Shown: positions 25,258-57,143 of the stretch, piece after piece | How positions within the stretch are numbered: the first letter of the stretch is position 1 | Layout of the letters: each line of letters opens with the position of its first letter | From: Salinibacterium sp. | Lineage (GTDB): Bacteria > Actinomycetota > Actinomycetes > Actinomycetales > Microbacteriaceae | Reading direction: 5' to 3' | Assembly (NCBI GenBank): GCA_015234465.1 | Contig: JADGNA010000008.1 | Location: 992,001-1,056,000, forward strand | Length of the DNA stretch: 64,000 nt | Translations under genes and position numbers: made by a program | The notes under the pieces: generated by a model | Database searches by the model: none | What the model was told of the DNA's origin: nothing | The model's input: only the letters and a program-made list of their open reading frames with translations

Positions 25258-25341
25258 CACTCGATGACGAACTGTTTCGCGGCTGCTCGCACTTTGCGTG
25301 ACGGCGGCGCAGCATGGTGTCCCGAGCGAAAGGCCGAGCCC

Positions 25342-32964: not shown

Positions 32965-32991
32965 TCACGACCTCATCTAAGGAGTATGCAG

Positions 32992-33963: not shown

Positions 33964-34898
33964 GTACCTCCACCTCCAAGGCGACGCCGTCCAAGAAGGG
34001 TGGGAACCGCAGCAAGTGGTTCCCGCTCGTCTGGGTCATCCCGGTCGCCGTCGTGCTGCTGGCCGCCGCTGTGCTCGGCGCCCAGTGGCTGCGCACCCTG
34101 CCCGAGGTCCAGTCGTTCTTGAGCGACTACCCCGGCCATGTCGAACGCGATGAGGCCCAGGGCTTCCCCGTGTGGGTGCAGTGGTCGCACCTGTTCAACA
34201 TCCTGCTGATCGTGCTGATCATCCGCTCCGGATGGCACGTGCGCACGCGGCAGCGCCCGCCAGCACACTGGACCCGCAACAACACGGGCCTGATCAAGAC
34301 CAAGGGCAAGCCGACCAAGATCAGCCTCGATCTGTGGCTGCACCTGAGCCTCGACGCCCTCTGGGTGATCAACGGCCTCGTGTTCTACATCATGCTGTTC
34401 GCCACCGGCCAGTGGCAGCGCATCGTGCCGGCGTCGTGGGAGCACATCCCCAACGCGCTGTCCGCTGGGCTTCAGTATGCGTCGCTGGACTGGCCGCACG
34501 AGAACTCGTGGGTGTCGTACAACAGCCTGCAGATCATCGCCTACTTCGTGACTGTCTTCATCGCGGCGCCGCTGGCGATCGCGACGGGCATCCGGATGTC
34601 GGGCGCGTGGCCGAAGGATGCGGCGATCAACAAGGTCTACCCGGTCGAGGTCGCCCGCGCCATCCACTTCCCCGTCATGCTCTACTTCGTGGTGTTCATC
34701 ATCGCGCACGTCACGCTCGTCTTCACGACGGGTGCCCTGCGCAACCTGAACCACATGTTCGGTGGACGCAACGAGGAGTCCTGGTTCGGCTTCGGAATGT
34801 TCGCCATCACCATGGTCGTGCTGATCGCACTGTGGTTCGCCGCACGACCGCTCATCCTGCGCCCGATCGCCAACCTCATGGGCAAGGTCAGCAAATAA
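33960..34898 (+). CDS. Cytochrome b/b6 domain-containing membrane protein (formate dehydrogenase gamma / Ni-Fe hydrogenase b-type-like)
   Basis: Multi-TM with His in helices ([36 protein letters not shown]); 4-bp GTGA overlap with etfA. Confidence 0.8.
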
Positions 34899-34916
34899 CC
34901 TCTGGAGGTCCCCGCC

Positions 34917-39023: not shown

Positions 39024-40022
39024 ATGACTCGCGCGCGCATCGGATACGCCGCCATGCTGGAACAGTTCGCGCCCTCCGAGGCGGTCGCGCTCGCCGCGCA
39101 CGCCGAGGCGCACGGCTTCTCGGGGGTCATCGCCGCAGACCACTTCCAGCCGTGGGTGCCCGCGCAGGGTGAGTCATCCTTCGTGTGGAGCGTGCTCTCC
39201 GCGCTCGGGGAGCGCACCGAGGGCAGCTTCGGACCCGTGACCTCGCCGACCTTCCGGATGCACCCGGCCGCCGTGGCGCAGGCATCCGCGACCCTCGCAA
39301 GCATGTACCCGGGACGGCACTGGCTCGGCGTGGGCTCGGGCGAGGCACTCAACGAGCACGTCGTCGGCCAGTACTGGCCCGAGGCGCCCGAACGCATCGA
39401 CCGGATGTTCGAGGCTGTCGAGGTCATCGGCAAGCTCTTCGCAGGTTCGCTCGCGGGCCGTGACGTGCGGCACAGCGGCACGCACTTCCGCCTCGAGTCG
39501 GCGCGCCTGTGGACCATGCCCGAGGTCGCGCCCCAGGTGCTCGTCGCGACATCCGGACCCGTGACCGCGAAGCGCGCGGGACGGGTCGCCGACGGCATCA
39601 TCACGACCAATGCGCCGCTCGAGAAGCTCGAGCAGCTGCTGCGCCGCTTCGAGGAGGGGGCCCGCGCGGTCGGCCGGGACGCGACATCCGCCCCGCGCGT
39701 GCTGCGCCTGCACCTCAGCTGGGCCGACACCGACGAGCAGGCCATGGCGAACGCGCTGCGGGAGTGGCCCAACGGCGCCATGCGGTTCTCGCAGGCCGAC
39801 GTGCGGTCGCCCTACGAGTTCGAGCAGCTGGCCAGGCTCGTGCGGCCAGAGCACTTCGAGGGGCGGATGCTCGTGAGCGCCGACCTCGACGCCCACCGCG
39901 AGCACATCCAGCGTCACCTCGACCTCGGGTTCACTCACATCCACCTGCACAACGTGGGTCGCAACCAGCGCGAGTGGATCGAGGCCTTCGGGCGCGATGT
40001 GCTGCCGAAGTTGGTGGCGTGA
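39024..40022 (+). CDS. LLM class F420-dependent oxidoreductase (G6PDH-like family)
   Basis: [61 protein letters not shown]. Confidence 0.9.
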
Positions 40023-40807
40023 TGGGGCTCGTTCCAGGACTCGCGGTCCTCGGCGTGGCGGGCATCCCCGAGGTCCGGCCCGGCGACGACATTGCGGCGC
40101 TCATCCTCGCGGCAGGCGCCGAACTGGAGCACGGCGACATCCTCGCCGTGACGAGCAAGGTCGTGTCGAAGGCCGAGGGGCGCATCGTCGCGGCGGCCGA
40201 CCGAGAGCAGGCGATTACTGACGAGACCGTGCGCGTGGTGGCATCCCGCGAGCATCCCGGCGGCGTCACCCGCATCGTCGAGAACCGGCAGGGCCTCGTG
40301 ATGGCGGCGGCCGGCGTCGACTCGAGTAACACGGATGACGGCACCGTGCTGCTGCTCCCCGAGGATCCGGATGCCTCGGCCCGCGCACTCTGCGCCGCGC
40401 TCCGCCGCGCGACCGGCCTGCGCCTCGGCGTCATCATCACCGACACGGCGGGGCGTCCCTGGCGGCAGGGACAGACCGACATCGCGATCGGTGCGGCGGG
40501 GGTGCGGGTCATCGACGACCTGCGGGGCGCCACGGATGCCGCGGGGCGGCCGCTCACCGTCACGGCGGCGGCGATCGGGGATGAGGTGGCTGCGGCATCC
40601 GACCTCGTCAAGGGCAAGACCAGCGGCATGCCCGTCGCGGTCGTGCGGGGACTCGGCCGCTACGTCACCGAGCTCGACGCGCCGGGCGCGCGATCCCTGC
40701 AGCGGCACGGCGACGCCGACATGTTCAGCCTGGGGACTGCGGAGGCACGGGCGGAAGGCTACGAGGCGGGGCGGGCCTCGCTACTCAAGCCGCCGCCGTC
40801 GGCGTAG
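40022..40807 (+). CDS. cofE: Coenzyme F420-0:L-glutamate ligase
   Basis: [65 protein letters not shown]; start ATG 40022 (ORF track start 39509 is out of frame with the upstream LLM gene). Confidence 0.93.
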
Positions 40808-40816
40808 CGTGGGGGC

Positions 40817-41257
40817 ATGCCACTCAGCGGAGACTACGAACCCAGCACATCGAAGCGCACCGCCGACCAGGTTGCCCTCTATGAGCGCTCCGGCGGCACG
40901 GAGGGCACGACCCTCGGCGGCAGGCCGGTCGTGATCGTCACGTCCGTCGGCGCGAAGTCGGGCAAGCTGCGCAAGATCGCGCTCATGCGGGTCGAACACG
41001 AGGGCGAGTATGCGCTCGTCGCCTCGATGGGCGGGGCGCCGAAGCATCCGGTCTGGTACTACAACCTCGTCAAGGAGCCGCACATCGAGCTTCAGGACGG
41101 CGCCGAGCGCGCCGACTACGAGGTGCGGATCGTGGAGGGCGAGGAGAAGGCGGCGTGGTGGGAGCGGGCCGTCGAGGCGTTTCCGCCCTACGCGGAGTAC
41201 CAGCAGCGCACGGAGCGGGAGATCCCGGTGTTCGTGGCGCGGCGCATCGCAGGGTAG
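40817..41257 (+). CDS. Nitroreductase family deazaflavin(F420)-dependent oxidoreductase (Ddn-like)
   Basis: [62 protein letters not shown]. Confidence 0.93.
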
Positions 41258-41945: not shown

Positions 41946-42725
41946 CTAGGAGAAGACGATGACCGGATGCCCCGTGCGCGGGTTGGTGAGCACGTCGCAG
42001 TCCACGCCGTAGACGGCGCTGATGGTGGCGGGCTGCAGCACCTCGGCGGGGGTGCCGGCGGCCACGAGGCATCCGTCGTCGAGGAGCAGGATGCGGTCGC
42101 AGTGGGCGGCCGCGAGCGTGAGGTCGTGGAGCGCCATGACGGCCGTGACGCCGAGCCCGCGCACCTGCCGCAGGAGCGACAGTTGGGCGTGCACGTCGAG
42201 GTGGTTGGTGGGTTCGTCGAGCAGGAGCACGCCCGGCTCCTGGGCGAGGGCCCGGGCGACCTGCACGCGCTGCTGCTGGCCGCCGCTCAGGGTGTGCCAG
42301 TGGCGCTCGGCGATATCGGTCGCGCCCGCGGCGGCGAGGGCGGCGTCGACCGAGGGGGCATCGGTGGGGCTGAGGAGTCCGCGGCGGTGCGGGATGCGGC
42401 CGAGCTGCACGACTTCACGGGCGGTCAGGTCGGTCGAGGGGGTGGCGTTCTGTTCGAGGAGGGCGATGCGGCGGGCGCGCTCGCGGCGCGGGAGGGCGGC
42501 GAGGTCGGTTCCGTCGATTGCGACCGTGCCGGCATCCGGGGCCGTGATGCCGCCGATGATCCGTAGGAGTGTGGACTTGCCGGCGCCGTTGGGGCCGAGC
42601 AGGCCCGTCACGAGGCCGCTGGGGGCACTCGCCGTGATGTCGCGCAGGATCGGACGGCCGTCGATCGAGACGGAGACGCCGCTGAGCTCGAGCCCCGCAA
42701 GCCGGACCCGTGTCGTCACGCCCAT
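41946..42725 (-). CDS. ABC transporter ATP-binding protein, FecE-like; candidate F420-0 transporter ATPase
   Basis: GLLGPNGAGKSTLLRIIGG, LSGGQQQRVQVARALAQEPGVLLLDEPTNHLD; context with cofE and F420 enzymes. Confidence 0.9.
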   Translation of the reverse strand: MGVTTRVRLAGLELSGVSVSIDGRPILRDITASAPSGLVTGLLGPNGAGKSTLLRIIGGITAPDAGTVAIDGTDLAALPRRERARRIALLEQNATPSTDLTAREVVQLGRIPHRRGLLSPTDAPSVDAALAAAGATDIAERHWHTLSGGQQQRVQVARALAQEPGVLLLDEPTNHLDVHAQLSLLRQVRGLGVTAVMALHDLTLAAAHCDRILLLDDGCLVAAGTPAEVLQPATISAVYGVDCDVLTNPRTGHPVIVFS

Positions 42726-43744
42726 GTTGCCCCCCTCTTCCGCACGAAGAGCAGCACGAACACGGGCACGCCGATGACGGCGGTGATGATGCCGACGGGC
42801 AGCTCCCGCGGGTCGAAGACGGTGCGGGCGAGGGTGTCGGCGATGACGAGGAAGAGGGCGCCGGCGACGACCGTGAGGGGGAGCATCCGTGCGTGCCCCG
42901 GACCCGTCACGCTGCGCACGACGTGAGGAAGGATGAGCCCGACGAACCCGATTGCCCCGCTCACCGCGACCATCGCGCCGGTGAGGAGCGCGACGCCCGT
43001 GAGCAGCAGCCAGCGGGTGGCCTCGACGTTGATGCCGAGGGACGCGGCGGCCGTGTCACCGAAGGTGAAGGCATCGAGCCGGGGGGCGGCGAGTACGAGC
43101 GCGGTACCCACGACGGCGAGGGCAATGCCCGAGATGGCGACGGTCGACCAGTCGCTGCCCGCGAGGGACCCGAGCAGCCAGTTGAGAATCTCGCGGTAGG
43201 AGTCCCCCTTCGCCGACCAGAAGATGATGAAGGATGTCGCGGCGCCAGCCAGCTGGGCGATCGCGAGCCCGGCCAGCACGGCGCGTCCCGGCGTGATCGC
43301 CCCTCCTGCCCGTGCGATTGCGAGGGACGCGACGAGCGCGAGGAGGGCGCCCGCGAAGGCGGCGGGGGGCAGCATGATGCCGACCCCGAGGATCAGCACG
43401 GCGACCGCGCCGAGGGAGGCGCCCGAGGAGAGCCCGAGCAGGTAGGGGTCGGCGAGGGGGTTGCGGGTGACGCTCTGCATGACGGCGCCGCTCAGGGCGA
43501 GCCCGGCACCGACGGCGGCGGCCGTCAGCACGCGCGGCAGACGCAGCTCCCACACGATCGTGTCGGTCAGGGGCGGCACGGCGGCGACGGGGAGGCCCAG
43601 GTGCCCGGCGACGCTCGCGAGCACATCACCGACGCGGATGTCGGCGGGCCCGATCGTGATGGCGACGCAGCAGACGATGAGGAGGGCCACGATCGTGCCG
43701 AGGAGCGCGGCCGCGTGGGATACGCGGCGGCGGGGGCCGCGCAT
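42716..43744 (-). CDS. FecCD-family ABC permease; candidate F420-0 transporter permease
   Basis: LRLPRVLTAAAVGAGLALSGAVMQSVTRNPLADPYLLGLSSGASLGA; GFVGLILPHVVR. Confidence 0.93.
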   Translation of the reverse strand: MRGPRRRVSHAAALLGTIVALLIVCCVAITIGPADIRVGDVLASVAGHLGLPVAAVPPLTDTIVWELRLPRVLTAAAVGAGLALSGAVMQSVTRNPLADPYLLGLSSGASLGAVAVLILGVGIMLPPAAFAGALLALVASLAIARAGGAITPGRAVLAGLAIAQLAGAATSFIIFWSAKGDSYREILNWLLGSLAGSDWSTVAISGIALAVVGTALVLAAPRLDAFTFGDTAAASLGINVEATRWLLLTGVALLTGAMVAVSGAIGFVGLILPHVVRSVTGPGHARMLPLTVVAGALFLVIADTLARTVFDPRELPVGIITAVIGVPVFVLLFVRKRGATWA

Positions 43745-43776
43745 CCGCTTCTCCGCCTGCGGGCGGGTGTCGAGGG

Positions 43777-44757
43777 CTACCAGCCGAGCCCCCTGAGCTG
43801 TTCGATGGCGGATGCCGCGGCCTCCACATTGCGGATGCCCGCCTCGGTCGCGGCGAACGGCAGCACGACGTAGCGGCCCTCGCGCACGGCCTCAAGGGAG
43901 GCGGTCGCGGGATGCCCCTCGAGCACGTCGATCTTGGATTCGGCGGTGTTCCAGGCGGAGTCGACGAGCACGATCATGTCGGGGTCGTGGGCGACGACGG
44001 TCTCCCAGCTGACGGAGCTCCACGTGTCGTCGAGGGAGGAGAAGATGTTGTCGAGCCCCGCCGCATCCATGATCATCTGCGGAGCACCGATGCCAGCGCC
44101 GACGTAGGGGGTGTCCCGACCGCTCGAGTACCAGAGGGCGGTCGGGGCGTCGTCGACGGGGCGAAGCGCCGCGAGTGCCGCACGCTGTTCGGCCAGGAGC
44201 TCGGTCGCGGCGCCCTGCGCGTCGAAGATGAGGCCCGCCTCGGTGATGCTGTCGAAGACCGTCTCGAAGGTCAGAGGCCGCGGCATGTGGGCCTCGCCCT
44301 TGCACGCGGGTGGCGCGACGTAGCTCGCGATGCCGAACTGCGCCAGCCGGTCGCGCTCGCCGGCGCCCTCGACACTGAAGTTCGACTCCCAGCCGGCGTA
44401 GACGAGATCGGGCTCGAGGGCGAGCACGGCCTCCTGCCCGGGCACCGAGTCGCTCAGCACCTCGACCTCGGCACCGTCCGGGAGGGGCCCGTCGAGCGCG
44501 GAGGCGCCGACGATCCGGTCTCCCAGACCGAGCGCGAGCAGCAGCTCGGTCGTGCTCGACTTGATCGTGACGACGCGCTCCGGCGGGCCGTCGAGCGTGA
44601 GCTCGAAGCCGCAGTTGTCGACCGTGAGGGGGTAGGCGGCGGCTGGCGCGGGCGCAGCATCCACGTCATCCGCAATGGATCCGGCGGTGCATCCCGCGAG
44701 CAGGAGGAGCACTGCGGATGCGGCGGCGAGGGTCGCGGGGCGACTGCGAGTTGTCAT
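43777..44757 (-). CDS. FecB/BtuF-type substrate-binding lipoprotein; candidate F420-0 binding protein
   Basis: Lipobox LLLLAGCTAG; VVTIKSSTTELLLALGLGDRIVGAS; ALEPDLVYAGWESNF. Confidence 0.88.
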   Translation of the reverse strand: MTTRSRPATLAAASAVLLLLAGCTAGSIADDVDAAPAPAAAYPLTVDNCGFELTLDGPPERVVTIKSSTTELLLALGLGDRIVGASALDGPLPDGAEVEVLSDSVPGQEAVLALEPDLVYAGWESNFSVEGAGERDRLAQFGIASYVAPPACKGEAHMPRPLTFETVFDSITEAGLIFDAQGAATELLAEQRAALAALRPVDDAPTALWYSSGRDTPYVGAGIGAPQMIMDAAGLDNIFSSLDDTWSSVSWETVVAHDPDMIVLVDSAWNTAESKIDVLEGHPATASLEAVREGRYVVLPFAATEAGIRNVEAAASAIEQLRGLGW

Positions 44758-44814
44758 GATGGTCGGCCTCGATCGGGAGCGGCCCGGGCGCGGTTGCGCG
44801 AGGGCTTCGTGGAG

Positions 44815-44920
44815 GCACGCCGACATGGGCGTGCGGGCACGGCATGACGCCGATCGACAGTCCGCCCAATGCCCGGACGGCTCGACCCGGTCACAGCCGA
44901 CCGGGGGTCTGCCAGCAGAC
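44815..44920 (-). promoter_or_regulatory. Candidate structured 5' leader of the F420-0-type transporter operon
   Basis: Consecutive hairpins: 44815-44834 (7 bp), 44840-44852 (4 bp), 44860-44878 (5 bp), 44886-44905 (7 bp), 44907-44920 (5 bp). Confidence 0.35.
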
Positions 44921-46290
44921 TACGCCCATCTGGCACCCGGCGCGCGGTCTGCGGCTGATCTCGGTGCGGCGGTCGCGGCGAGGGCGGCGGCGATCTCGCG
45001 CACCTCGCCGCGGATCGCGCCGACGGTGACGCGCACGTGGGGTTGCTGGTTCTCGTCGACGGCGAGAAAGGGCGTGCCTCCCGCGACCCGGATTCCGGAT
45101 GCCGCGAGCTGGAGCATCGCCTCATGCTCGTCCTCGACGGCAAGCCAGGTGTTGATGCCGTCGGCGGGGCCCGTGGTCACCCCGAGCTGGCTGAGGGCCT
45201 CGGCGAGTTCGTGCTGCCGGGTGGCGTATTCGTCGCGGGCGCGCGCCACCTGGGCGACGCTGCGCTCGTCGACGAGGAGGTCGTGGAGGATGGTCTGCAG
45301 CATGCGGCTCGTCCAGCCGGGCCCGAGCATCCGTCGAGCGACGACACGGTTCACGAGGGCGGCGGAGCCGCCGAGTGCCGCGATCCGCAGGTCGGGCCCG
45401 TGGGACTTGGAGTAGCTGCGCACGTGCAGCACCCGCTCGGGCAGCCACTGGCCGATGCTGACGTCGTCGGCCGTGCTGATCTGTCCTGAGTGGTCGTCTT
45501 CGATCACGATCGTCTTGGCCGCCCGCGGGTCGTCCTGCAGCATCCGCGCGAGCTGCTCGGCGCGGGCGGCGGTCATGGATGCGCCCGTGGGGTTGTGTGC
45601 CCTCGGCTGGAGGATGACGGCCGAGGGGCCCTTGGCGAGGGCGGCCGCGAAGGCGCTCGGCTCGAGGCCGTGCTGGTCCACGGGCACGGGCAGGCGCTCG
45701 ACGCCGAGTTGGTCGAGCAGGTCGTAGAACGGCGGGAAGGTGGGGTTCTCGATGATGACCCGGTCGCCGAAGCGCACGACCTCGTCGAGGCTGCGGGAGA
45801 TCGCGTCGAGGGCACCGTTGACGACCGTGATGGAGTCGACGGGATACGGCCACGATTCCTGCAGCACGTCCAGGAGCCCGGGGATGACGGGAAGGTCCTG
45901 GTAGCTGGAGGTGACGGCGCGTTCCGAGATGCGGGAGAGCGCCGGGCCGAGGGCTGGGAGGAGCTCCGGGTCCGGGATGCCGCGGGAGAGGTCGATCCGG
46001 GAGTCGACCCGTCGTCCCGCCATGACCTTGCTGCGGGCGGGCAGCCACTCCTGGGCGCGCTCCGACACGAAGGTGCCGCTGCGTCCCCGCGACACGATGA
46101 GGCCCGCGGCACTGACGGCCTGCCAGGCGTGGCTGACGGTGGCGGGGCTCACTCCGAGGTCGCCCGCGAGCTGGCGCACGGTGGGGAGCCGGGCGCCGGG
46201 GGCGAGGCGACCCGAGCTGATGAGCCTGCCGAGCGCGGCCGAGATGCCCGCGGGCGTCGGCTCATCGATCTCGTCGACCAGAGGATTCAT
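44920..46290 (-). CDS. MocR-type (GntR HTH + aminotransferase class I/II fold) transcriptional regulator
   Basis: HTH SGRLAPGARLPTVRQLAGDLGVSPATVSHAWQ; PLP domain IEDDHSGQIST, YSKSHGPDLRIAALGG. Confidence 0.93.
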   Translation of the reverse strand: MNPLVDEIDEPTPAGISAALGRLISSGRLAPGARLPTVRQLAGDLGVSPATVSHAWQAVSAAGLIVSRGRSGTFVSERAQEWLPARSKVMAGRRVDSRIDLSRGIPDPELLPALGPALSRISERAVTSSYQDLPVIPGLLDVLQESWPYPVDSITVVNGALDAISRSLDEVVRFGDRVIIENPTFPPFYDLLDQLGVERLPVPVDQHGLEPSAFAAALAKGPSAVILQPRAHNPTGASMTAARAEQLARMLQDDPRAAKTIVIEDDHSGQISTADDVSIGQWLPERVLHVRSYSKSHGPDLRIAALGGSAALVNRVVARRMLGPGWTSRMLQTILHDLLVDERSVAQVARARDEYATRQHELAEALSQLGVTTGPADGINTWLAVEDEHEAMLQLAASGIRVAGGTPFLAVDENQQPHVRVTVGAIRGEVREIAAALAATAAPRSAADRAPGARWA

Positions 46291-46487: not shown

Positions 46488-47336
46488 TTGACCGTAGTTC
46501 GAGCCGCCATCACCCAGACCACCTGGACCGGCGACAAAGAATCCATGCTCGACAAGCACGAGCAGTTCGCGCGGGATGCCGCGGCCGAGGGAGCGCAGAT
46601 CATCTGCTTCCAAGAGCTCTTCTACGGCCCGTACTTCGGCATCACCGAAGACAAGAAGTACTACCGCTACGCGGAGCCGGCCGATGGCCCCATCGTGCAG
46701 CGCTTCGCCGCGCTCGCGAAGGAGCTCGGCCTCGTCATGGTCCTCCCCATCTATGAGGAGGACATCACGGGCGTCTACTACAACACCGCCGTTGTGGTCG
46801 ACGCCGACGGCACGATCCTCGGCAAGTACCGCAAGCACCACATCCCGCACCTCGACCGTTTCTGGGAGAAGTTCTACTTCCGGCCCGGCAACCTCGGCTA
46901 CCCAGTCTTCGACACGGCCGTCGGTAAGGTCGGCGTCTACATCTGCTACGACCGGCACTTTCCGGAAGGGTGGCGCGAGCTCGGCCTGAACGGCGCCCAC
47001 ATGGTCTTCAACCCCAACGCCACCAAGCCGGGTCTCTCGAACCGGCTGTGGGAGGTCGAGGGGCCCTGCGCCGCCGTCGCGAACGGATACTTCGTGCTGC
47101 AGCCCAACCGGGTCGGCCGTGAGGACAACGAGTACGGCGAGCTCGCCGTCGACTTCTACGGCACGAGCCAGGTCATCGACCCCCGCGGCAACTTCGTCGG
47201 GGAGAAGGGCTCGGGCGACTCGGAGGAGCTCATCATCCGTGACCTCGACCTCGACATGGTGCAGCAGATGCGCGACGACTGGCAGTTCTACCGCGACCGC
47301 CGACCCGACTCGTACACGAGCATCCCGAAGCCGTAG
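46488..47336 (+). CDS. Carbon-nitrogen hydrolase (nitrilase superfamily), likely beta-ureidopropionase / N-carbamoyl amidohydrolase
   Basis: ICFQELFYGPYFGI, KYRKHHIPHLDRFWEKFYFRPGN, VGVYICYDRHFPEGWRELGLNGAHMVFNPNAT. Confidence 0.92.
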   Translation: MTVVRAAITQTTWTGDKESMLDKHEQFARDAAAEGAQIICFQELFYGPYFGITEDKKYYRYAEPADGPIVQRFAALAKELGLVMVLPIYEEDITGVYYNTAVVVDADGTILGKYRKHHIPHLDRFWEKFYFRPGNLGYPVFDTAVGKVGVYICYDRHFPEGWRELGLNGAHMVFNPNATKPGLSNRLWEVEGPCAAVANGYFVLQPNRVGREDNEYGELAVDFYGTSQVIDPRGNFVGEKGSGDSEELIIRDLDLDMVQQMRDDWQFYRDRRPDSYTSIPKP

Positions 47337-47346
47337 GGAGACGACC

Positions 47347-48780
47347 ATGAAGACCCTCATCAAGAACGGCACCGTCGTCTCGGCGACCGGCCGCGTGCAG
47401 GCCGACGTGCTCATCGACGGCGAGACGATCGTCGCCGTGCTGACACCGGGCTCGACGCTGCTCGGCACCGACCTGGCCGCGAACGTCGACACGGTGGTCG
47501 ACGCGGCGGGCAAGTACGTCATCCCCGGCGGGATCGACGCCCACACGCATATGGAGCTGCCGTTCGGCGGCACCGCGGCATCCGACACCTTCGAGACCGG
47601 CACGCGCGCGGCCGCCTGGGGCGGCACGACGACGATCATCGACTTCGCGGTGCAGACCTACGGCCAGCGGGTCATGGACGGCCTGGCCGCCTGGCATGAG
47701 AAGGCGGCGGGCAACTGCGCGATCGACTACGCCTTCCACCAGATCATCGGCGACGTCACCGACGACTCGCTCCAGGCCATGCGGGCGCTCCCCGACGAGG
47801 GCGTCTCGAGTTTCAAGCTCTTCATGGCCTACCCGGGCGTCTTCATGTCGGATGACGCGCAGGTGTTCAAGGCGATGCAGGTCTCCGCCGGCACGGGGAT
47901 GATGACGATGATGCACGCCGAGAACGGCCCCGTCATCGACGTCATGGTCAAGCAGCTGCTCGAGCAGGGCAAGTCCGACCCGTACTACCACGGGGTCGCC
48001 CGCGCCTGGCAGATGGAGGAGGAGGCGACGCACCGCGCCATCATGCTCGCCAACCTGACGGGCGCACCCCTCTACGTCGTGCACGTCAGCGCCAAGCAGG
48101 CGGTCGAGCAGCTGGCAGCGGCCCGCGATGTCGGCCAGAACGTCTTCGGCGAGACCTGCCCGCAGTACCTCTACCTGTCGCTCGAAGACCAGCTCGGCGC
48201 ATCCAGCGACGAATTCGGCGCCTTCGAGGGGGCCAAGTGGGTGTGTTCGACGCCGCTGCGATCGAAGCATGAGGGACACCAGCACCACATGTGGCAGAGC
48301 CTGCGCACCAACGACATCCAGATGGTCTCGACCGACCACTGCCCCTTCTGCATGAAGGGCCAGAAGGAGCTCGGCCTCGGCGACTTCTCCAAGATCCCCA
48401 ACGGCATCGGCTCGGTCGAGCACCGCATGGACCTGCTCTACCAAGGGGTGGTCGACGGCCAGATCACCCTTGAACGCTGGGTCGAGATCACCTCGACGAC
48501 GCCCGCCCGCATGTTCGGGCTCTACGGCACGAAGGGCGTCATCCAGCCGGGGGCCGACGCCGACATCGTCGTCTACGACCCCAACGGCCACACGTCGATC
48601 GGCGTGGGCAAGACCCACCACATGAACATGGACCACTCGGCGTGGGAGGGCTTCGAGATCGACGGCCACGTCGACACCGTGGTCTCCCGCGGCAAGGTCA
48701 TCGTCGACGAGAGCGGCTACATCGGCACCAAGGGTGACGGTCAGTTCGTCAAGCGCGGCCTGAGCCAGTACCTGATCTGA
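47347..48780 (+). CDS. hydA: Dihydropyrimidinase / D-hydantoinase
   Basis: VIPGGIDAHTHMELPFGG, SFKLFMAYPG, HAENGPVIDVM, YVVHVSAKQAVEQ, VSTDHCPF. Confidence 0.95.
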   Translation: MKTLIKNGTVVSATGRVQADVLIDGETIVAVLTPGSTLLGTDLAANVDTVVDAAGKYVIPGGIDAHTHMELPFGGTAASDTFETGTRAAAWGGTTTIIDFAVQTYGQRVMDGLAAWHEKAAGNCAIDYAFHQIIGDVTDDSLQAMRALPDEGVSSFKLFMAYPGVFMSDDAQVFKAMQVSAGTGMMTMMHAENGPVIDVMVKQLLEQGKSDPYYHGVARAWQMEEEATHRAIMLANLTGAPLYVVHVSAKQAVEQLAAARDVGQNVFGETCPQYLYLSLEDQLGASSDEFGAFEGAKWVCSTPLRSKHEGHQHHMWQSLRTNDIQMVSTDHCPFCMKGQKELGLGDFSKIPNGIGSVEHRMDLLYQGVVDGQITLERWVEITSTTPARMFGLYGTKGVIQPGADADIVVYDPNGHTSIGVGKTHHMNMDHSAWEGFEIDGHVDTVVSRGKVIVDESGYIGTKGDGQFVKRGLSQYLI

Positions 48781-48790
48781 GAGGCGATCA

Positions 48791-49819
48791 ATGGATTTCG
48801 GAGCAGTACTGCAGACCAATCCGCCGTCGGCACGCACCGTGCAGCTGGCGAAACTGGCGGAGGCGCACGGCTTCAGCCACGTGTGGACGTTCGACTCGCA
48901 CCTGCTGTGGCAGGAGCCCTATGTGATCTACAGTCGCATCCTCGCCGAGACCGACAAGGTCATCGTCGGGCCGATGGTGACGAACCCGGCGACCCGCGAC
49001 TGGACGGTCACGGCATCCACCTACGCGACGCTCAACGAGATGTACGGCAACCGCACGATCTGCGGCATCGGCCGCGGCGACTCGGCAGTGCGGGTCACGA
49101 ACGGTGCCCCGACGACCCTCAAGACGCTGCGTGAATCGATCCACGTGATCCGGGAGCTCGCCAACAGCCGGCCCGTCGAATACAACGGCGCGACGCTGCA
49201 GTTCCCCTGGAGCAAGGGGTCGAAGCTCGACGTGTGGGTCGCCGCGTATGGTCCCCTCGCGCTCAAGCTCACGGGCGAGGTCGGCGACGGCTTCATCCTG
49301 CAGATGGCCGACCTCGACGTCGCCGAATGGATGATCAAAACGGTGCGGGATGCCGCCGCCAACGCCGGCCGCGACCCCATGTCGATCAAGTTCTGCGTCG
49401 CGGCGCCCATGTACATCACCGACGATGCGGATGCTGCGCGGGCGCACATGCGCGACCAGTGCCGCTGGTTCGGTGGCATGGTGGGCAACCACGTCGCCGA
49501 CATCGTGGCGAAGTACGGGGAGGGCTCGGCCGTGCCGAAGGCCCTCACCGACTACATCAAGGGCCGGGAGGGTTACGACTACAACGAGCACGGGCGGGCG
49601 GGCAACACGCACGCCGACTTCGTGCCCGACGAGATCGTCGACCGCTTCTGCGTGCTAGGCACGGCATCCGATCACATCGAGAAGCTCAAGGCACTCGCGG
49701 AGCTCGGTGTCGACCAGTTCGCCGGGTACCTGCAGCATGACAACAAAGAGGAGACGCTGCGGGTCTACGGCGAGACCGTCATCCCCGCGCTCTCCGAGCA
49801 CATCGTCGCGAAGGCGTAG
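48791..49819 (+). CDS. LLM class F420-dependent oxidoreductase (TIGR03842-like)
   Basis: MDFGAVLQTNPPSARTVQLAKLAEAHGFSHVWTFDSHLLWQEPYVIYSRILAETDKVIVGPMVTNPATRDWTVTAS. Confidence 0.88.
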   Translation: MDFGAVLQTNPPSARTVQLAKLAEAHGFSHVWTFDSHLLWQEPYVIYSRILAETDKVIVGPMVTNPATRDWTVTASTYATLNEMYGNRTICGIGRGDSAVRVTNGAPTTLKTLRESIHVIRELANSRPVEYNGATLQFPWSKGSKLDVWVAAYGPLALKLTGEVGDGFILQMADLDVAEWMIKTVRDAAANAGRDPMSIKFCVAAPMYITDDADAARAHMRDQCRWFGGMVGNHVADIVAKYGEGSAVPKALTDYIKGREGYDYNEHGRAGNTHADFVPDEIVDRFCVLGTASDHIEKLKALAELGVDQFAGYLQHDNKEETLRVYGETVIPALSEHIVAKA

Positions 49820-49828
49820 GGCGCGAAG

Positions 49829-50767
49829 ATGGCCGACGGGCTCAGCCGCACAGGGCAGATCGCGACCCCGGGCCTGCGTCGTCGCCGTGGAGCGCCCGCC
49901 CGCGAGCTCGCCCGCTGGGGTGCCGGGGCGCTCGGCATCGTCGTGCTCGTGGGCATCTGGGAGCTCTACAAGCTCCTCGGTCCCGCCGACGGGCTCGTGC
50001 TCTTCGGTAACCGCGTGCTGCCGCGCACGAGCGACCTCGCCATGCCGCACAGCTGGGACATGCTCGCCCGGCTGCTCGAACCGGTCACGCGAGCGGACGG
50101 CGCGCGGCCGCTCTGGCTCGAGGTCGCCGTCGCGGCGACCCTCACGCTCGGCATCGCCGCGGCGGGCTGGCTCACGGGGCTCGTCGTGGGCGTCGGCCTC
50201 GCGCTCGTGATGCAGCGGTGGAAGCTTGCCGAATGGGGCCTGCTGCCCTGGATCATCCTCAGCCAGACCATCCCCCTCATCGCCTTCGCCCCCGTCGTGC
50301 GCAGTTGGGGCTCGCGCATCGAGATCGGCGCCTTCGAGTGGCAGGACTGGATGTCGGTGGCGCTCATCGCCTCCTACCTCGCTTTCTTCCCCATCGCTGT
50401 CGGCGCGCTCAAGGGCTTGCAGTCGCCCGACACGATCCACGTTGAGCTCATGAAGACTTACGCGGCCGGGTGGTGGAAGACCCTCGTGCGCCTACGCCTG
50501 CCCGCCGCCGTGCCCTACCTGCTGCCCGCGCTCAGGCTCGGCGCCGCCAACGCCGTCATCGGTGCCGTCGTCGCCGAGGTCTCGACAGGGCTGCAGGGCG
50601 GCATCGGGCGCATCCTCATCCAATACGCCGGCCAGGCGAGCGGAGACCCGTCCAAGGCGTGGGGGCCCATCTTCGGGGCCATCGTGCTGGGGCTCGTCGC
50701 GGCCGGATCAATCGCACTGCTCGGCGCCATGCTGGGCCGCTACAGGAGAGTGGAGATCAGCGGATGA
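49829..50767 (+). CDS. ABC transporter permease (nitrate/taurine/pyrimidine-type BPD)
   Basis: BPD loop LKTYAAGWWKTLVRLRLPAAVPYLLPALRLGAANAVIGAVVAEV. Confidence 0.92.
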   Translation: MADGLSRTGQIATPGLRRRRGAPARELARWGAGALGIVVLVGIWELYKLLGPADGLVLFGNRVLPRTSDLAMPHSWDMLARLLEPVTRADGARPLWLEVAVAATLTLGIAAAGWLTGLVVGVGLALVMQRWKLAEWGLLPWIILSQTIPLIAFAPVVRSWGSRIEIGAFEWQDWMSVALIASYLAFFPIAVGALKGLQSPDTIHVELMKTYAAGWWKTLVRLRLPAAVPYLLPALRLGAANAVIGAVVAEVSTGLQGGIGRILIQYAGQASGDPSKAWGPIFGAIVLGLVAAGSIALLGAMLGRYRRVEISG

Positions 50768-51588
50768 CGCAGATGACCGGTGGTACGGATGCCGTCAGCA
50801 TCGCGGGGGTCGACAAGGTCTTCGAGACCCGCAGCGGGCAGGTGCAGGCGCTCTCGGGCATCGACCTGACGGTGGCGGCGGGTGAGTTCGTGTCGCTCAT
50901 CGGCCCCTCCGGCTGCGGCAAGTCCACGCTCATGCGCCTCATCGCCGACCTCGACCAGCCGAGCACGGGCACCGTGTCGGTGTTCGGCAAGCCGGCGAAG
51001 GATGCCCGCATCGCCCAGGACTACGGCATCGCCTTCCAGCAGGCCGGCCTGCTGCCGTGGCGCACGGTCGAGGAGAACATCGAGCTGCCCCTCTCCCTCC
51101 ACGGAGCGCCGAAGGCCGAACGTGCGGCACGCGTCGCCGAGCTCGTCTCCCTCGTGGGCCTCGGGGACTTCGCCGACCGCTACCCCGACCAGCTCTCGGG
51201 CGGCATGCAGCAGCGCGTCGCGATCGCCCGGGCGCTGGCGGAGAAGCCGCGCCTGCTGCTCATGGATGAACCCTTCGGCGCCCTCGACGAGATGACGAGA
51301 GAACGGATGCAGTCGGAGCTCGTGCGCATCTGCGCCGAGACCGGCGCGGCCGTCGTGTTCGTGACGCACTCCATCCCCGAAGCCGTGTTCCTCTCCGACC
51401 GGGTCGTCGTCATGTCGCCCCGGCCGGGTCGCATCCAGGAGATCGTGACGATGCGGCTCGCCGCCACCGCCGACCGCGAAGAGGGTCTGCGCGAGCAGCA
51501 CGAGTTCTTCGACATGATCACGGCCGTGCGCGAGGCCCTCCACCAGGGCTCGCCGGTCGCCGCGGTGCGTGGAGTGGAGACGCGCTGA
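50764..51588 (+). CDS. ABC transporter ATP-binding protein (SsuB/TauB/ThiZ-like)
   Basis: LIGPSGCGKSTLMRLIADL, LSGGMQQRVAIARALAEKPRLLLMDEPFGALDEMTRERMQSEL. Confidence 0.95.
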   Translation: MTQMTGGTDAVSIAGVDKVFETRSGQVQALSGIDLTVAAGEFVSLIGPSGCGKSTLMRLIADLDQPSTGTVSVFGKPAKDARIAQDYGIAFQQAGLLPWRTVEENIELPLSLHGAPKAERAARVAELVSLVGLGDFADRYPDQLSGGMQQRVAIARALAEKPRLLLMDEPFGALDEMTRERMQSELVRICAETGAAVVFVTHSIPEAVFLSDRVVVMSPRPGRIQEIVTMRLAATADREEGLREQHEFFDMITAVREALHQGSPVAAVRGVETR

Positions 51589-52370
51589 TGGGCCGGGCCG
51601 TGACGATGAACCCGCGGACGGAGGTCGCCGCTCGCACCATCGCGCCCATCGTCGTGGGCCTCGTGGTGCTCGGCGGCTGGCAGCTCGCCGTGACCGTCGG
51701 GGGCGTCGACGACTACCTCCTGCCAGCGCCCGCCTCCATCATCGACCAGCTCGTGGAGTTCGCCCCCTCGATGCTCAGCGCCGGGCTCATCACGGGCACC
51801 AACGCCCTCATCGGCCTGCTCGTGGGGGCCGTGCTCGGCATCGTGGTCGCCCTCTTCGCGGCATCCGCTCGCCTCGTCGACTGGATGGCCGCGCCCGTCG
51901 TCGCGGCGCTCGCCGTCATCCCCATCGTTGCCCTCGCACCCGTGCTCAACACGATGTTCGGTGCCGACTCGCAGTTCGGGCGCCAAGCCATCGCGGCGCT
52001 CGCCGTCTTCGTGCCCGTCTTCATCAACACTCTGCGCGGCCTGCGGCAGGCGCTCCCCGTGCACCGCGACCTCATGGCCGTGTACGCCGCGAAACCCGGC
52101 CAGGTCATGCGCACCGTGACGCTGCCGACGGCGACGCCCTTCGTCTTCACGGGCATCCGCATCGGCTCCTCGCTCGCCGTCATCTCAGCGCTCGTCGCCG
52201 AGTACTTCGGCGGCCCGCGTGGCGGTCTCGGCGGCCTCATCTCCACCTCTGCGGCATCCAGCGCGTACCCGCGTGCCTGGGCCTACGTCATCATCTCCAT
52301 CGTGCTCGGCCTGGCCTTCTATCTCGTGACGCTCGGCGCTGAGCGACTCGCGGTGCGGAGGCGTAGCTGA
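51588..52370 (+). CDS. ABC transporter permease (second permease of same system)
   Basis: BPD loop MAVYAAKPGQVMRTVTLPTATPFVFTGIRIGSSLAVISALVAEYFGG. Confidence 0.92.
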   Translation: MGRAVTMNPRTEVAARTIAPIVVGLVVLGGWQLAVTVGGVDDYLLPAPASIIDQLVEFAPSMLSAGLITGTNALIGLLVGAVLGIVVALFAASARLVDWMAAPVVAALAVIPIVALAPVLNTMFGADSQFGRQAIAALAVFVPVFINTLRGLRQALPVHRDLMAVYAAKPGQVMRTVTLPTATPFVFTGIRIGSSLAVISALVAEYFGGPRGGLGGLISTSAASSAYPRAWAYVIISIVLGLAFYLVTLGAERLAVRRRS

Positions 52371-52440
52371 ACCCGACGTCCTCCCGTCCTCCGGGCGAGA
52401 TGGCCGACCACACAGGCACCAACGACAGGAAGGCACCGAC

Positions 52441-53589
52441 ATGAAACACAGCACACGTCGTGCGGCGAGCATCGCCGCGACAGCACTCGCGGCAGGGCTC
52501 GTGCTCTCGGCCTGCTCAGGCACCGGGGGCGACACCGATTCCGACACGGGTGGCGATGAACTCACCGAGGTGAAGCTGCAGCTGCAGTGGCTGCCGCAGG
52601 GGCAGTTCGCGGGCTACTTCGCGGCGCAGGAGCAGGGCTTCTTCGAGGAGGCAGGCCTCGACGTCGAGATCATCCCGAGTGGCGGCGACATCGTGCCGCA
52701 GGATGCCCTCGCCAACGGTGACGTCGACTACGCGATCGCCTGGGTGCCGAAGGTGCTCGGCTCGATCGAGGCCGGTGCCAATGTGACCAACATCGCGCAG
52801 ATCTTCCAGCGCTCCGGCACCCTGCAGGTGTCGTGGGCCGACTCCGGCATTGAGTCGGTCGCCGACTTCGAGGGCAAGAAGATCGGCAGCTGGGGCTTCG
52901 GCAACGAGTGGGAGATCTTCGCCGCGATGGCGGAGGAGGGCCTCGACTCGACGACCGTCGAGATCATCACGCAGGACTTCAACATGAACGCCTTCCTCTC
53001 GGGCGACATCGACGCAGCCCAGGCGATGACCTACAACGAGTACGCGCAACTGCTCGAGGCGGTCAACCCCGACACGGGAGAGCTCTATACGCCGGAGGAC
53101 TTCACCGTTATCAGCTACGAAGACACGGTCGGCGCGATGCTGCAGGACGCAGTCTGGGCCGACACTGAGCGCCTCGAGAGCGACGAGGAGTACCAGGAGA
53201 CGACCGTCGCCTTCCTCAAGGCGGTCATCAAGGGCTGGGCCTACGCCGCCGACAACCCCGAGGAGGCGTCGGAGATGACCATCAACGCCGGCTCCGGCTG
53301 GGGTGCGAGCCACGAACTGTGGATGGTCAACGAGACCAACAAGCTCATCTGGCCGGCAGAGAACGGCATCGGCTACATCGATGAGGCCGCATTCGAGGCC
53401 ACCGTTGCGGCCGCGCTGAGCGCCACCAACGAGACCGGCGCGAGCCTCATCACCGAGGAACCGCCCGCCACCGCGTGGACCAACGAATACATCGAGCAGG
53501 CACTCGCCGAACTCGAGGAGGAGGGCGTCGACGTGAAGGGAGACGACTTCGAGCCCATCGAGGTCGAGCTGCTCGAGGGCGGCGCCTAG
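52441..53589 (+). CDS. NMT1/THI5-like ABC transporter substrate-binding lipoprotein
   Basis: Lipobox LVLSACSG; VKLQLQWLPQGQFAGYFAAQEQGFFEEAGLDVEIIPSGGDIVPQ. Confidence 0.93.
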   Translation: MKHSTRRAASIAATALAAGLVLSACSGTGGDTDSDTGGDELTEVKLQLQWLPQGQFAGYFAAQEQGFFEEAGLDVEIIPSGGDIVPQDALANGDVDYAIAWVPKVLGSIEAGANVTNIAQIFQRSGTLQVSWADSGIESVADFEGKKIGSWGFGNEWEIFAAMAEEGLDSTTVEIITQDFNMNAFLSGDIDAAQAMTYNEYAQLLEAVNPDTGELYTPEDFTVISYEDTVGAMLQDAVWADTERLESDEEYQETTVAFLKAVIKGWAYAADNPEEASEMTINAGSGWGASHELWMVNETNKLIWPAENGIGYIDEAAFEATVAAALSATNETGASLITEEPPATAWTNEYIEQALAELEEEGVDVKGDDFEPIEVELLEGGA

Positions 53590-53663
53590 CAAGCACCGGC
53601 CGGGCGGCCGAGCACACCTCGGCCGCCCGGCCACCAACGTCAACAGAAAGAAGGCGTGAACCG

Positions 53664-54986
53664 ATGAACGACCGCACCAGCATCCCCAATGAGCGCATCG
53701 TCGCGCTCGACCGCGCCCACGTCTTCCACTCCTGGTCTGCGCAGGGCGCCCTCGCGCCCCTCGTCATCACGGGAGGCTCGGGTACCCGCGCCTGGGATGA
53801 CGAGGGCACCACCTACCTCGACTTCTCGAGCCAGCTCATCAACCTCAACATCGGCCACCAGCATCCGGCGGTCATCGCGGCAATCGCGGAGCAGGCGCGC
53901 CAGCTCACGACGGTCGCCCCCGCCACCGCCAATCTTGCCCGCGGGGAGGCCGCCGAGCGCATCGTCGCGCGGGCACCCGAGGGCTTCAACAGGGTGTTCT
54001 TCACCAACGGTGGTGCGGATGCCAACGAGAACGCCATCCGCATGGCCCGCCTGCACACTGGGCGTGACACCGTGCTCTCGACCTACCGCTCGTACCACGG
54101 CAACACGGGCGCCGCGATCGTCGCGACAGGGGACTGGCGACGGATGCCCAACCAGTACGCCCGCGGGCACGTGCACTTCTGGGGGCCCTACCTCTACCGC
54201 TCCGAGTTCTGGGCAACGACGCCCGAGCAGGAGTCGGAGCGGGCGCTGCGACACCTCGAGCGCACGATCCAAGGGGAGGGACCGCAGACGATCGCGGCGG
54301 TCCTCCTCGAGACGGTGCCGGGAACCGCGGGCATCCTGCCGCCGCCCCCCGGCTACCTGGCCGGCGTGCGGGAGCTGTGCGACCGCTTTGGGCTCGTGCT
54401 GATCCTCGACGAGGTCATGGCGGGCTTCGGCCGCACGGGTCGCTGGCTCGCGCTCGACGGCTACGACGTCGTGCCCGACCTCATCACCGTCGCCAAGGGG
54501 GTCAACTCGGGCTACGTGCCGGTCGGTGGCGTCATCATCTCCGACGAGATCGCCGCAGACTTCGACGAGACCGTCTTTCCCGGCGGGCTCACCTACAGCG
54601 GGCATCCGCTCGCCATGGCGTCGATCATCGGTGCGCTCGACGCGATGGAGCGCGAGGGCATCGTCGACAACGCCGCCCGCATCGGCGCGGAGGCAATCGG
54701 GCCGGCGCTCGAAGCGCTCGCGCAGAAGCATCCGATCGTCGGCGAGGTGCGGGGTGAGGGCGTCTTCTGGGCGATCGAACTCGTCGCCGACCGGGAGACC
54801 CGCGAACCCCTGCCAGCCGAGACGATGGGCCGCATCAAGAGCGAACTGCTCGCCCGTCGCCTGCTCGCGATCGTGCAGGACAACCGCATCCACGTCGTGC
54901 CCCCCTGCGTCGTCACCGATGACGAGGTGGCGGAGGCCGTCGCGATCTACGACGAGGTGCTCGCCCTCGTCGGTACCGCGGGTTGA
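53664..54986 (+). CDS. Class III aminotransferase (beta-alanine/omega-amino acid type)
   Basis: FFTNGGADANENAIRMARLHTGRDTVLSTYRSYHGNTGAA, LILDEVMAGFGRTGRW, ITVAKGVNSGYVPVGGVIIS; ATG 53664 with RBS. Confidence 0.93.
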   Translation: MNDRTSIPNERIVALDRAHVFHSWSAQGALAPLVITGGSGTRAWDDEGTTYLDFSSQLINLNIGHQHPAVIAAIAEQARQLTTVAPATANLARGEAAERIVARAPEGFNRVFFTNGGADANENAIRMARLHTGRDTVLSTYRSYHGNTGAAIVATGDWRRMPNQYARGHVHFWGPYLYRSEFWATTPEQESERALRHLERTIQGEGPQTIAAVLLETVPGTAGILPPPPGYLAGVRELCDRFGLVLILDEVMAGFGRTGRWLALDGYDVVPDLITVAKGVNSGYVPVGGVIISDEIAADFDETVFPGGLTYSGHPLAMASIIGALDAMEREGIVDNAARIGAEAIGPALEALAQKHPIVGEVRGEGVFWAIELVADRETREPLPAETMGRIKSELLARRLLAIVQDNRIHVVPPCVVTDDEVAEAVAIYDEVLALVGTAG

Positions 54987-55045
54987 GTAGGCCCGCCATG
55001 CCGTACCCGCGGGTTGAGTAGGCCCGCCAGGGCCGTATCGAAACC
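54980..55045. repeat. Two tandem copies (one truncated) of the GGTTGAGTAGGCCCGCC(A) repeat
   Basis: CGGGTTGAGTAGGCCCGCCATGCCGTACCC then CGGGTTGAGTAGGCCCGCCAGGGCCGTATCGAAACCC; aminotransferase TGA lies within the first copy. Confidence 0.9.
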
Positions 55046-55075
55046 CCCAAGATTTCTCCGAACAAAGGAACCACA

Positions 55076-56569
55076 ATGACCACCACGCTCAACCACTGGA
55101 TCAACGGGGCCGACGCCGAGGGCACCTCCCCGCGCACCTCACCCGTCTTCAACCCCGCCCGCGGCGAGGTCAGCAAGAACGTGCGGCTCGCGAGCGTCGC
55201 GGATGTCGACTCCGCCGTCGCCGCCGCGCGCGAAGCCTTCCCCGCGTGGCGGGCCGCATCGCTCGCCAAGCGGCAAGGCATCCTGTTCACCTTCCGCGAG
55301 CTGCTCAACCAGCGGCAGGGCGAACTGGCCGACATCCTCACCTCCGAGCACGGCAAGGTGACCTCGGATGCCCTGGGCGAGATCGCGCGCGGCCTCGAGG
55401 TCGTCGAGTTCGCGCTCGGCATGCCGCACCTGCTCAAGGGTGACTACAGCGAGAACGTCTCGACGGGGGTCGACGTCTACACGCTGCGGCAGCCGCTCGG
55501 CGTCGTGGGCATCATCAGCCCCTTCAACTTCCCCGCCATGGTGCCGCTGTGGTTCTTCCCGATCGCGCTCGCGGCCGGCAACACCGTCGTGCTGAAGCCG
55601 AGCGAGAAAGACCCCTCGGCGGCGAACTGGATGGCGTCGCTGCTCGCCGAGGCCGGCCTGCCGGCGGGGGTGTTCAACGTGGTCCACGGTGATAAGGAGG
55701 CGGTCGATGCGCTCCTGGAGCACCCGGATGTCGCCTCCATCTCCTTCGTCGGCTCCACCCCGATCGCCAAGTACATCTACGAGACCGCGTCGTCGCACGG
55801 CAAGCGGGTGCAGGCCCTCGGCGGTGCGAAGAACCACATGCTGGTGCTGCCGGATGCCGACCTCGACCTCGCCGCGGACGCCGCCGTCAACGCCGGCTTC
55901 GGCTCGGCGGGCGAGCGCTGCATGGCGATCAGCGTCATCCTCGCGGTCGAACCGGTCGCCGACGAGCTCATCTCCCGCATCACCTCCCGCATGCAGGGCC
56001 TCAGGGTCGGCGACGGGATGCGCGGATGCGACATGGGTCCGCTCATCACGGAGGCGCACCGAGACAAGGTTGCCTCGTACATCGACATCGCCGAGAACGA
56101 CGGGGCAACCGTCGTGGTCGACGGGCGCGGCGTGGAGGTCGACGGTGAGGCATCCGGATTCTGGCTCGGCCCGACCCTCTTCGACAGGGTCTCGACCGAC
56201 TCAGCCGTCTACCGGGACGAGATCTTCGGCCCCGTGCTGTCGATCGTGCGGGTCGCCTCCTACGACGAGGGGCTCGACATCATCAACGGCTCGCAGTACG
56301 GCAACGGCACCGCCATCTTCACGAACGACGGCGGGGCGGCGAGGCGCTTCCAGAACGAGGTGCAGGTGGGCATGGTCGGCATCAATGTGCCCATCCCCGT
56401 GCCCGTCGCGTACCACTCCTTCGGCGGATGGAAGGACTCACTCTTCGGTGACGCCAAGGCCTATGGCCCCTCGGGCATCGCGTTCTTCACGCGCGAGAAG
56501 GCCGTGACGTCACGCTGGCTCGACCCCTCCCACGGCGGCATCAACCTGGGCTTCCCGCAGCATGACTGA
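55076..56569 (+). CDS. mmsA: CoA-acylating (methyl)malonate-semialdehyde dehydrogenase
   Basis: HWINGADAEGTSPRTSPVFNPARGEV, GIISPFNFPAMVPLWFFPIALAAGNTVVLKPSEKDPS, GFGSAGERCMAISV. Confidence 0.95.
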   Translation: MTTTLNHWINGADAEGTSPRTSPVFNPARGEVSKNVRLASVADVDSAVAAAREAFPAWRAASLAKRQGILFTFRELLNQRQGELADILTSEHGKVTSDALGEIARGLEVVEFALGMPHLLKGDYSENVSTGVDVYTLRQPLGVVGIISPFNFPAMVPLWFFPIALAAGNTVVLKPSEKDPSAANWMASLLAEAGLPAGVFNVVHGDKEAVDALLEHPDVASISFVGSTPIAKYIYETASSHGKRVQALGGAKNHMLVLPDADLDLAADAAVNAGFGSAGERCMAISVILAVEPVADELISRITSRMQGLRVGDGMRGCDMGPLITEAHRDKVASYIDIAENDGATVVVDGRGVEVDGEASGFWLGPTLFDRVSTDSAVYRDEIFGPVLSIVRVASYDEGLDIINGSQYGNGTAIFTNDGGAARRFQNEVQVGMVGINVPIPVPVAYHSFGGWKDSLFGDAKAYGPSGIAFFTREKAVTSRWLDPSHGGINLGFPQHD

Positions 56570-56588: not shown

Positions 56589-57143
56589 GTGACCGACGCC
56601 AGGCAGCAGCTCATCGAATACATCAAGACCGACGCGGTCTTCCACGGGGACTTCACCCTCACGAGTGGCAAGAAGGCGAGCTACTACGTCGACCTGCGCA
56701 AGGTCAGCCTCGACCACCGCGTCGCGCCCCTGATCGGCCAGGTCATGCTCGACCTGATCGCCGACATCCCGGATGTCGCAGCCGTCGGCGGCCTCACCAT
56801 GGGCGCTGATCCCATCGCATCCGCGGTGCTGCACCAGGGTGCCGCACGCGGCGCCGCCTACGACGCCTTCGTCGTGCGCAAGGAGCCCAAGGACCACGGT
56901 CGCGGCCGCCAGGTCGAGGGGCCGGATGTCGCGGGCAAGCGCGTCATCGTGCTGGAAGACACCTCCACCACGGGTGGCTCCCCGCTCAAGGCGGCTGAAG
57001 CCCTCGAGAAGGTCGGGGCGATCATCGCCGGCGTCGCGGTCGTCGTCGACCGGGACACGGGCGCCAAGGAGATCATCGAGAAGGCCGGCTACCCGTACTA
57101 CGCGGCCATCACGCTTGGCGACCTGGGCCTCACGAAGGAGTAA
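56589..57143 (+). CDS. pyrE: Orotate phosphoribosyltransferase
   Basis: FTLTSGKKASYYVDLRKVSLDHR, VVRKEPKDHGRGRQVEGPDVAGKRVIVLEDTSTTGGSPLKA. Confidence 0.95.
   Translation: MTDARQQLIEYIKTDAVFHGDFTLTSGKKASYYVDLRKVSLDHRVAPLIGQVMLDLIADIPDVAAVGGLTMGADPIASAVLHQGAARGAAYDAFVVRKEPKDHGRGRQVEGPDVAGKRVIVLEDTSTTGGSPLKAAEALEKVGAIIAGVAVVVDRDTGAKEIIEKAGYPYYAAITLGDLGLTKE

Follow-up and report, generated by a model that had tools for sequence, protein, structure and literature searches.

A probable pyrimidine-catabolic operon in Salinibacterium with a putative F420-dependent first enzyme

How does a bacterium begin the reductive degradation of uracil and thymine when it encodes the later enzymes of that route and not the usual first one? 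The question is raised by a 64,000-nucleotide stretch of a Salinibacterium sp. genome (contig JADGNA010000008.1, positions 992,001 to 1,056,000; hereafter the window), in which a co-oriented + strand run of genes with short or overlapping junctions (46488-56569, Table 1) encodes a nitrilase-type hydrolase, a dihydropyrimidinase, an oxidoreductase of the luciferase-like (LLM) family, an ABC importer, a class III aminotransferase and a coenzyme A (CoA)-acylating (methyl)malonate-semialdehyde dehydrogenase (MMSDH). We consider it very probable that this operon degrades uracil and thymine reductively and that an F420H2-dependent LLM enzyme of family TIGR03842 performs the first step in place of PydA/PreTA/DPYD. 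An initial annotation of the window had proposed such a replacement, and every computable prediction of the proposal held; it is supported, as far as sequence can do so, by the lack of PreA and RutA, the linkage to dihydropyrimidinase, the anti-occurrence of PreA, the F420-type fold and site residues of the LLM protein, and linkage to genes of F420 supply.

Missing first enzymes and a conserved neighborhood

Scores throughout are bits against NCBIfam curated cut-offs (TIGR and NF models), with PF models also used, and genome searches scored the best few candidates per genome. The gene run described in the initial annotation, and the pyrE that follows it, were all recovered by profile matches at the expected positions and on the + strand; both permeases and the NMT1/THI5-like substrate-binding protein of the importer were confirmed, and to these we add the importer's ATPase, which had gone unmentioned. 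The reported lack of PreTA/DPYD and of a complete Rut set in the window is borne out by the genome at large (2.8 Mb, 99.97% complete), in which neither PreA (best 27.5 bits, cut-off 335) nor RutA (TIGR03612; best 70 bits, cut-off 498, at a gene other than the LLM) passes its threshold. A PreA encoded elsewhere, which would have counted against the proposal, is thereby excluded. Nor was a PreA or PreT match present at any LLM locus that we read. Among 397 Actinomycetota genomes PreA passed its cut-off in 3, and in none of the 84 that carry TIGR03842, the absence that the initial annotation had anticipated.

At least 589 TIGR03842-like stretches occur in the genome collection. We compared the neighborhoods of 54 loci across Actinomycetota and of 155 related loci, with 24 loci around other LLM genes as controls. 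The anticipated association of the family with dihydropyrimidinase was borne out: this gene lies near the TIGR03842 gene at 45 of 54 loci as against 1 of 24 controls, and the pair dihydropyrimidinase plus carbamoylase at 45 of 54 as against none. Chance is a very poor explanation of this arrangement: dihydropyrimidinase recurs at 146 of the 155 related loci (on the same strand as the LLM in 142, directly upstream in 120). The divergent MocR-type gene of the window, likely a local regulator, has counterparts at 70 of the 155 cluster loci and at none of the 24 controls. The remaining parts are exchanged among loci. The carbamoylase is of the nitrilase type in 36 of the 54 loci and of the Zn type (hydantoinase/carbamoylase family) in 15, never both, and the importer is an NMT1-type ABC system in 92 of the 155 and an NCS1 nucleobase symporter in 15, again never both. 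Such swapping of unrelated parts around a constant LLM and dihydropyrimidinase fits a pyrimidine pathway better than it fits inherited synteny.

The proteobacterial loci examined are plasmid-borne. In both Leisingera and Paracoccus alcaliphilus, a plasmid-encoded cofG-cofH-cofD-cofC-cofE-npdG run ends with the LLM gene. Divergent from this run in Leisingera are pntAB and genes for an aminotransferase, a Zn-type carbamoylase, dihydropyrimidinase and an NCS1 nucleobase symporter, and directly after the LLM stands a RutR homologue (TIGR03613, 194 bits, below the cut-off of 368; PF08362, 147 bits) whose nearest solved structures are those of E. coli RutR; no PydA is annotated at this plasmid locus, which is almost a complete F420-plus-pyrimidine module in itself. 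In P. alcaliphilus an NMT1-type ABC importer lies 3' of the LLM; there (locus L010, 16683-23839) the F420-LLM operon and importer are followed by a formate dehydrogenase-N operon with selA. A Caballeronia plasmid (NZ_CP049322.1, 93154-93537) retains only the C-terminal 128 amino acids of a TIGR03842 homologue, 75% identical to that of Leisingera, under a sulfatase-annotated gene.

The LLM protein and its F420 supply

The window protein is the single TIGR03842 member of its genome and spans positions 1-329 of the 329-position model, a family labelled 'hypoth_equivalog' in NCBIfam, that is, without assigned function. By sequence, its nearest solved structures are those of Mer, the F420-dependent methylene-H4MPT reductase (E value 5e-35); an AlphaFold (AF2) model (pLDDT 92.4) likewise retrieves Mer first in Foldseek (E value 1.5e-23, TM score 0.77), and the top 17 matches are F420 enzymes throughout. 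Residues were mapped on jMer (PMC11094777) and compared in 62 homologues. The GPxVTNP cis-peptide loop of Mer appears to be present, its Val in 62 of 62 sequences, and Asp96 and the carboxamide at position C of Mer are invariant (Asp97 and Gln171 in the window protein). The catalytic Glu6 of Mer is lost, being Val6 here and Val, Thr or Cys across TIGR03842, while N233, H234 and D237, together with R259, Y262-D263-Y264 and H267 of a family-specific insert, are invariant in the 62 homologues and not found in Mer. We infer a shared cofactor site and a different substrate. The predicted TIM barrel and non-prolyl cis-peptide loop would place the protein in the F420-dependent LLM group (Mer/Fgd/Adf), and its linkage to F420 genes leads us to predict that it binds and uses F420 rather than flavin mononucleotide (FMN). 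An FMN-only LLM is disfavored by that same linkage.

The initial annotation had noted Fgd and a probable F420-0 uptake system in the window. Fgd and the substrate-binding protein and permease of the importer pass their cut-offs, the ATPase falls below its own, and CofE had been overlooked. A CofH/FbiC match is found nowhere in the genome, which cannot build the F420 deazaflavin core and is equipped for F420-0 import, glutamate addition and reduction. With importer and CofE encoded without FO synthesis, and with Fgd also present, the genome looks, on its gene content, like an F420-0 scavenger. Further F420 users are encoded beside the importer, where a run at 39024-41257 combines CofE with another Fgd-like LLM (TIGR03557 family) and a deazaflavin-dependent protein of the nitroreductase family (TIGR00026). 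Downstream of Fgd (32191-36716) are EtfB-EtfA-like genes and an acyl-CoA-dehydrogenase-like protein of 599 amino acids, and at 25264-26724 is an NtaA/DmoA-family FMN monooxygenase (TIGR03860, 561 bits).

The link to the supply of this rare cofactor extends to relatives. Among 180 Microbacteriaceae genomes the LLM occurs in 85 and the importer permease passes its cut-off in 53, 48 of them with the LLM (Fisher p about 7e-15, a significance inflated by kinship among the genomes). FbiC was detected in 10 of the 180, all with the LLM, and is mutually exclusive with the importer. The two sources are also physically close: importer and LLM lie within 20 kb of each other in 42 of 50 pairs, counting strict and slightly weaker matches together, and FbiC and LLM within 15 kb in all 8 same-contig cases. 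By threshold, 25 LLM-bearing genomes have neither importer nor FbiC; we read 18 of these loci, and at most of them the cluster adjoins homologues of CofG, CofH, CofD, CofE and/or Fgd. Much of this gap is therefore a threshold effect, and a true lack of an F420 source is rejected for most of the loci read, the strict CofH threshold having missed neighboring homologues. Among the 397 Actinomycetota, CofH exceeds its curated score in 66 of 84 LLM genomes and in 136 of the 313 others.

Table 1. Features of the window, with profile scores in bits and predicted roles
Feature	Position	Strand	Profile evidence	Remarks
Fgd	30986-31990	+	TIGR03554, 685 (cut-off 420)	
CofE, coenzyme F420-0:L-glutamate ligase	40022-40807	+	TIGR01916, 239 (cut-off 181)	
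F420-0 ABC transporter ATPase	41946-42725	-	best match TIGR03873, 333 (below cut-off 372)	
F420-0 ABC transporter permease	42716-43744	-	TIGR03869, 476 (cut-off 437)	
F420-0 ABC transporter substrate-binding protein	43777-44826	-	TIGR03868, 439 (cut-off 392)	
MocR-type regulator (helix-turn-helix plus aminotransferase-like)	44920-46290	-	NCBIfam MocR-like matches	divergent from operon
Nitrilase-type carbon-nitrogen hydrolase (CN_hydrolase)	46488-47336	+	PF00795	TTG start; predicted beta-ureidopropionase / N-carbamoyl-beta-alanine amidase, third step
Dihydropyrimidinase (D-hydantoinase type)	47347-48780	+	TIGR02033, 539 (cut-off 393)	predicted second step
LLM oxidoreductase	48791-49819	+	TIGR03842, 588 (cut-off 295)	predicted F420H2-dependent uracil/thymine reductase
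ABC permease	49829-50767	+	PF00528	
ABC ATPase	50764-51588	+	PF00005; ntrCD/taurine-type models	same importer
Second ABC permease	51588-52370	+	PF00528	
NMT1/THI5-like substrate-binding protein	52441-53589	+	PF09084, 137	predicted pyrimidine-base binder
Class III aminotransferase	53664-54986	+	NF004718, 728; PF00202	predicted beta-alanine / 3-aminoisobutyrate transaminase
MMSDH, CoA-acylating	55076-56569	+	TIGR01722, 691 (cut-off 449)	
pyrE	56589-57143	+		3' of MMSDH

Proposed pathway and alternative readings

From the observed gene content, conservation, linkage, co-occurrence and fold class we propose the following reaction sequence, in which the reaction itself, its hydride donor, substrate range and direction are predictions. 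The NMT1-type ABC importer would take up the pyrimidine base, and the LLM protein, holding reduced F420 in a Mer-like cleft, would transfer a hydride to the C5=C6 bond to give dihydrouracil or dihydrothymine. Dihydropyrimidinase, whose product matches hydantoinases and dihydropyrimidinases in the PDB (E value about 1e-137), would open the ring, and the nitrilase-type amidase would release beta-alanine or 3-aminoisobutyrate with CO2 and NH3. The solved structures nearest this amidase include human beta-ureidopropionase and Drosophila CG3027, which we take to be the fly beta-ureidopropionase. The aminotransferase and CoA-acylating dehydrogenase would then yield acetyl-CoA or propionyl-CoA. The cofactor would be imported as F420-0 (41946-44826), extended by CofE and reduced by Fgd. 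We treated pyrE as flank and rejected it as a pathway member, most clusters having no adjacent pyrE. Between aminotransferase and MMSDH (54986-55050) a GGGTTGAGTAGGCCCGCCA-type repeat occurs twice and resembles a dispersed REP-like element.

Several points weigh against this pathway. The substrate assigned to the LLM is inferred from its neighbors, and enzymes of the D-hydantoinase family act on hydantoins too, just as NCS1 transporters also carry hydantoin and allantoin. Three loci of one family (L140, L141 and L143) have the LLM near MMSDH and no dihydropyrimidinase within the stretch read. The relatedness of the sampled genomes means that Fisher p values overstate their independence; physical linkage is independent of those values. 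Finally, 10 of the 84 TIGR03842 genomes have no CofH match, excluding four importer-bearing Microbacteriaceae; several of the 10 are fragmented, and three from one family (G169, G351 and G363, with loci L146, L139 and L145) are not obviously so. These three encode TIGR03842, dihydropyrimidinase and carbamoylase, with neither CofH nor an importer over cut-off, and would have either another F420 source or a changed cofactor.

The breadth of D-hydantoinases and NCS1 transporters lends some room to a reading in which the cluster degrades another N-heterocycle, such as a substituted hydantoin or a base that derives from a purine or otherwise resembles a pyrimidine, the LLM using F420H2 to reduce an exocyclic or ring C=C bond, and in the uric-acid clusters of Chloroflexota an F420-type LLM has indeed been suggested as the enzyme that reduces yanthine (PMC12507026). 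We regard this as unlikely: the beta-ureidopropionase-like amidase, aminotransferase and MMSDH suit beta-alanine and 3-aminoisobutyrate, and the Leisingera regulator is of the RutR type, a family of pyrimidine regulators. It is harder still to credit that the LLM serves another step, for example the reduction of malonate semialdehyde to 3-hydroxypropionate, with uracil reduced by an enzyme encoded elsewhere. A malonate-semialdehyde reductase (PydE) does occur in other pyrimidine pathways (PMC7332683), but at five loci (L126, L127, L138, L145 and L147) the LLM is kept with dihydropyrimidinase and carbamoylase and no aminotransferase or MMSDH was seen; where MMSDH is present it uses up malonate semialdehyde, and PreA is absent from this genome and from the TIGR03842 genomes sampled. 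Equally improbable is that the LLM is a RutA-type FMN monooxygenase opening uracil oxidatively, with dihydropyrimidinase serving some other purpose; although RutA too belongs to the LLM superfamily and acts on uracil, and a RutR-like regulator adjoins the Leisingera LLM, we reject this on family score (no candidate in the genome reaches RutA level), on fold (by family and by fold the LLM is closest to F420 enzymes, not to monooxygenases) and on downstream genes, the RutA product ureidoacrylate needing RutB while the conserved partners are dihydropyrimidinase and carbamoylase, and F420 genes are linked to the LLM besides. With dihydropyrimidinase as its conserved partner, the LLM of the proposed reductive operon would therefore form a dihydropyrimidine, not a RutA-like oxidation product.

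Comparison with known systems

On the reading proposed here, the cluster encodes the reductive pyrimidine pathway in a new form, with an F420-type LLM as first enzyme. It resembles the Pyd pathway in that a single operon encodes dihydropyrimidinase, beta-ureidopropionase, an aminotransferase and a semialdehyde dehydrogenase of the CoA-acylating kind, whereas the first enzyme there is PydA/PreA, an iron-sulfur flavoenzyme, and here an LLM F420-type protein with linked F420 supply genes. PydAc of Clostridium chromiireducens, a ferredoxin-dependent PydA variant described in 2020 (PMC7332683), likewise represents a Pyd pathway with a changed electron donor, but remains a PydA homologue with FMN and iron-sulfur clusters, while TIGR03842 belongs to an unrelated TIM-barrel family. 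Mer is nearest in both sequence and fold and has in common the loop, Asp96 and position C carboxamide; it differs in its catalytic Glu6, and the insert belongs to TIGR03842 only. A 2025 paper proposes, as a prediction, the yanthine reductase of Chloroflexota urate clusters (PMC12507026), likewise an F420-type LLM predicted to stand in for a PydA/YgfK-type enzyme in dearomatizing an N-heterocycle, though in a urate pathway of another phylum and likened to the LLM by type, not by TIGR03842 membership. A search of the open-access literature, with subscription papers and preprints outside its scope and priority not established, returned no paper that connects F420 in this way with dihydropyrimidinase, with the degradation of uracil or with pyrimidine catabolism.

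A 2021 review (PMC8498797) assigns F420 a 'minor or niche-specific' role in Oligotropha and Paracoccus. It is tempting to speculate, if tentatively, that uracil/thymine reduction by TIGR03842 could be a main reason why F420 is retained or imported by many Micrococcales and by some Alphaproteobacteria; importer and compact cof operons would then in effect be accessory parts of a pyrimidine-catabolic module, and F420 a vitamin scavenged for uracil use. The proposed pathway would also give a concrete reason for F420-0 uptake in bacteria unable to make F420. All three subunits of the known F420-0 importer cassette (TIGR03868/TIGR03869/TIGR03873) are here accompanied by CofE in a genome without FbiC, and across Microbacteriaceae the cassette is found linked to the LLM-dihydropyrimidinase cluster.

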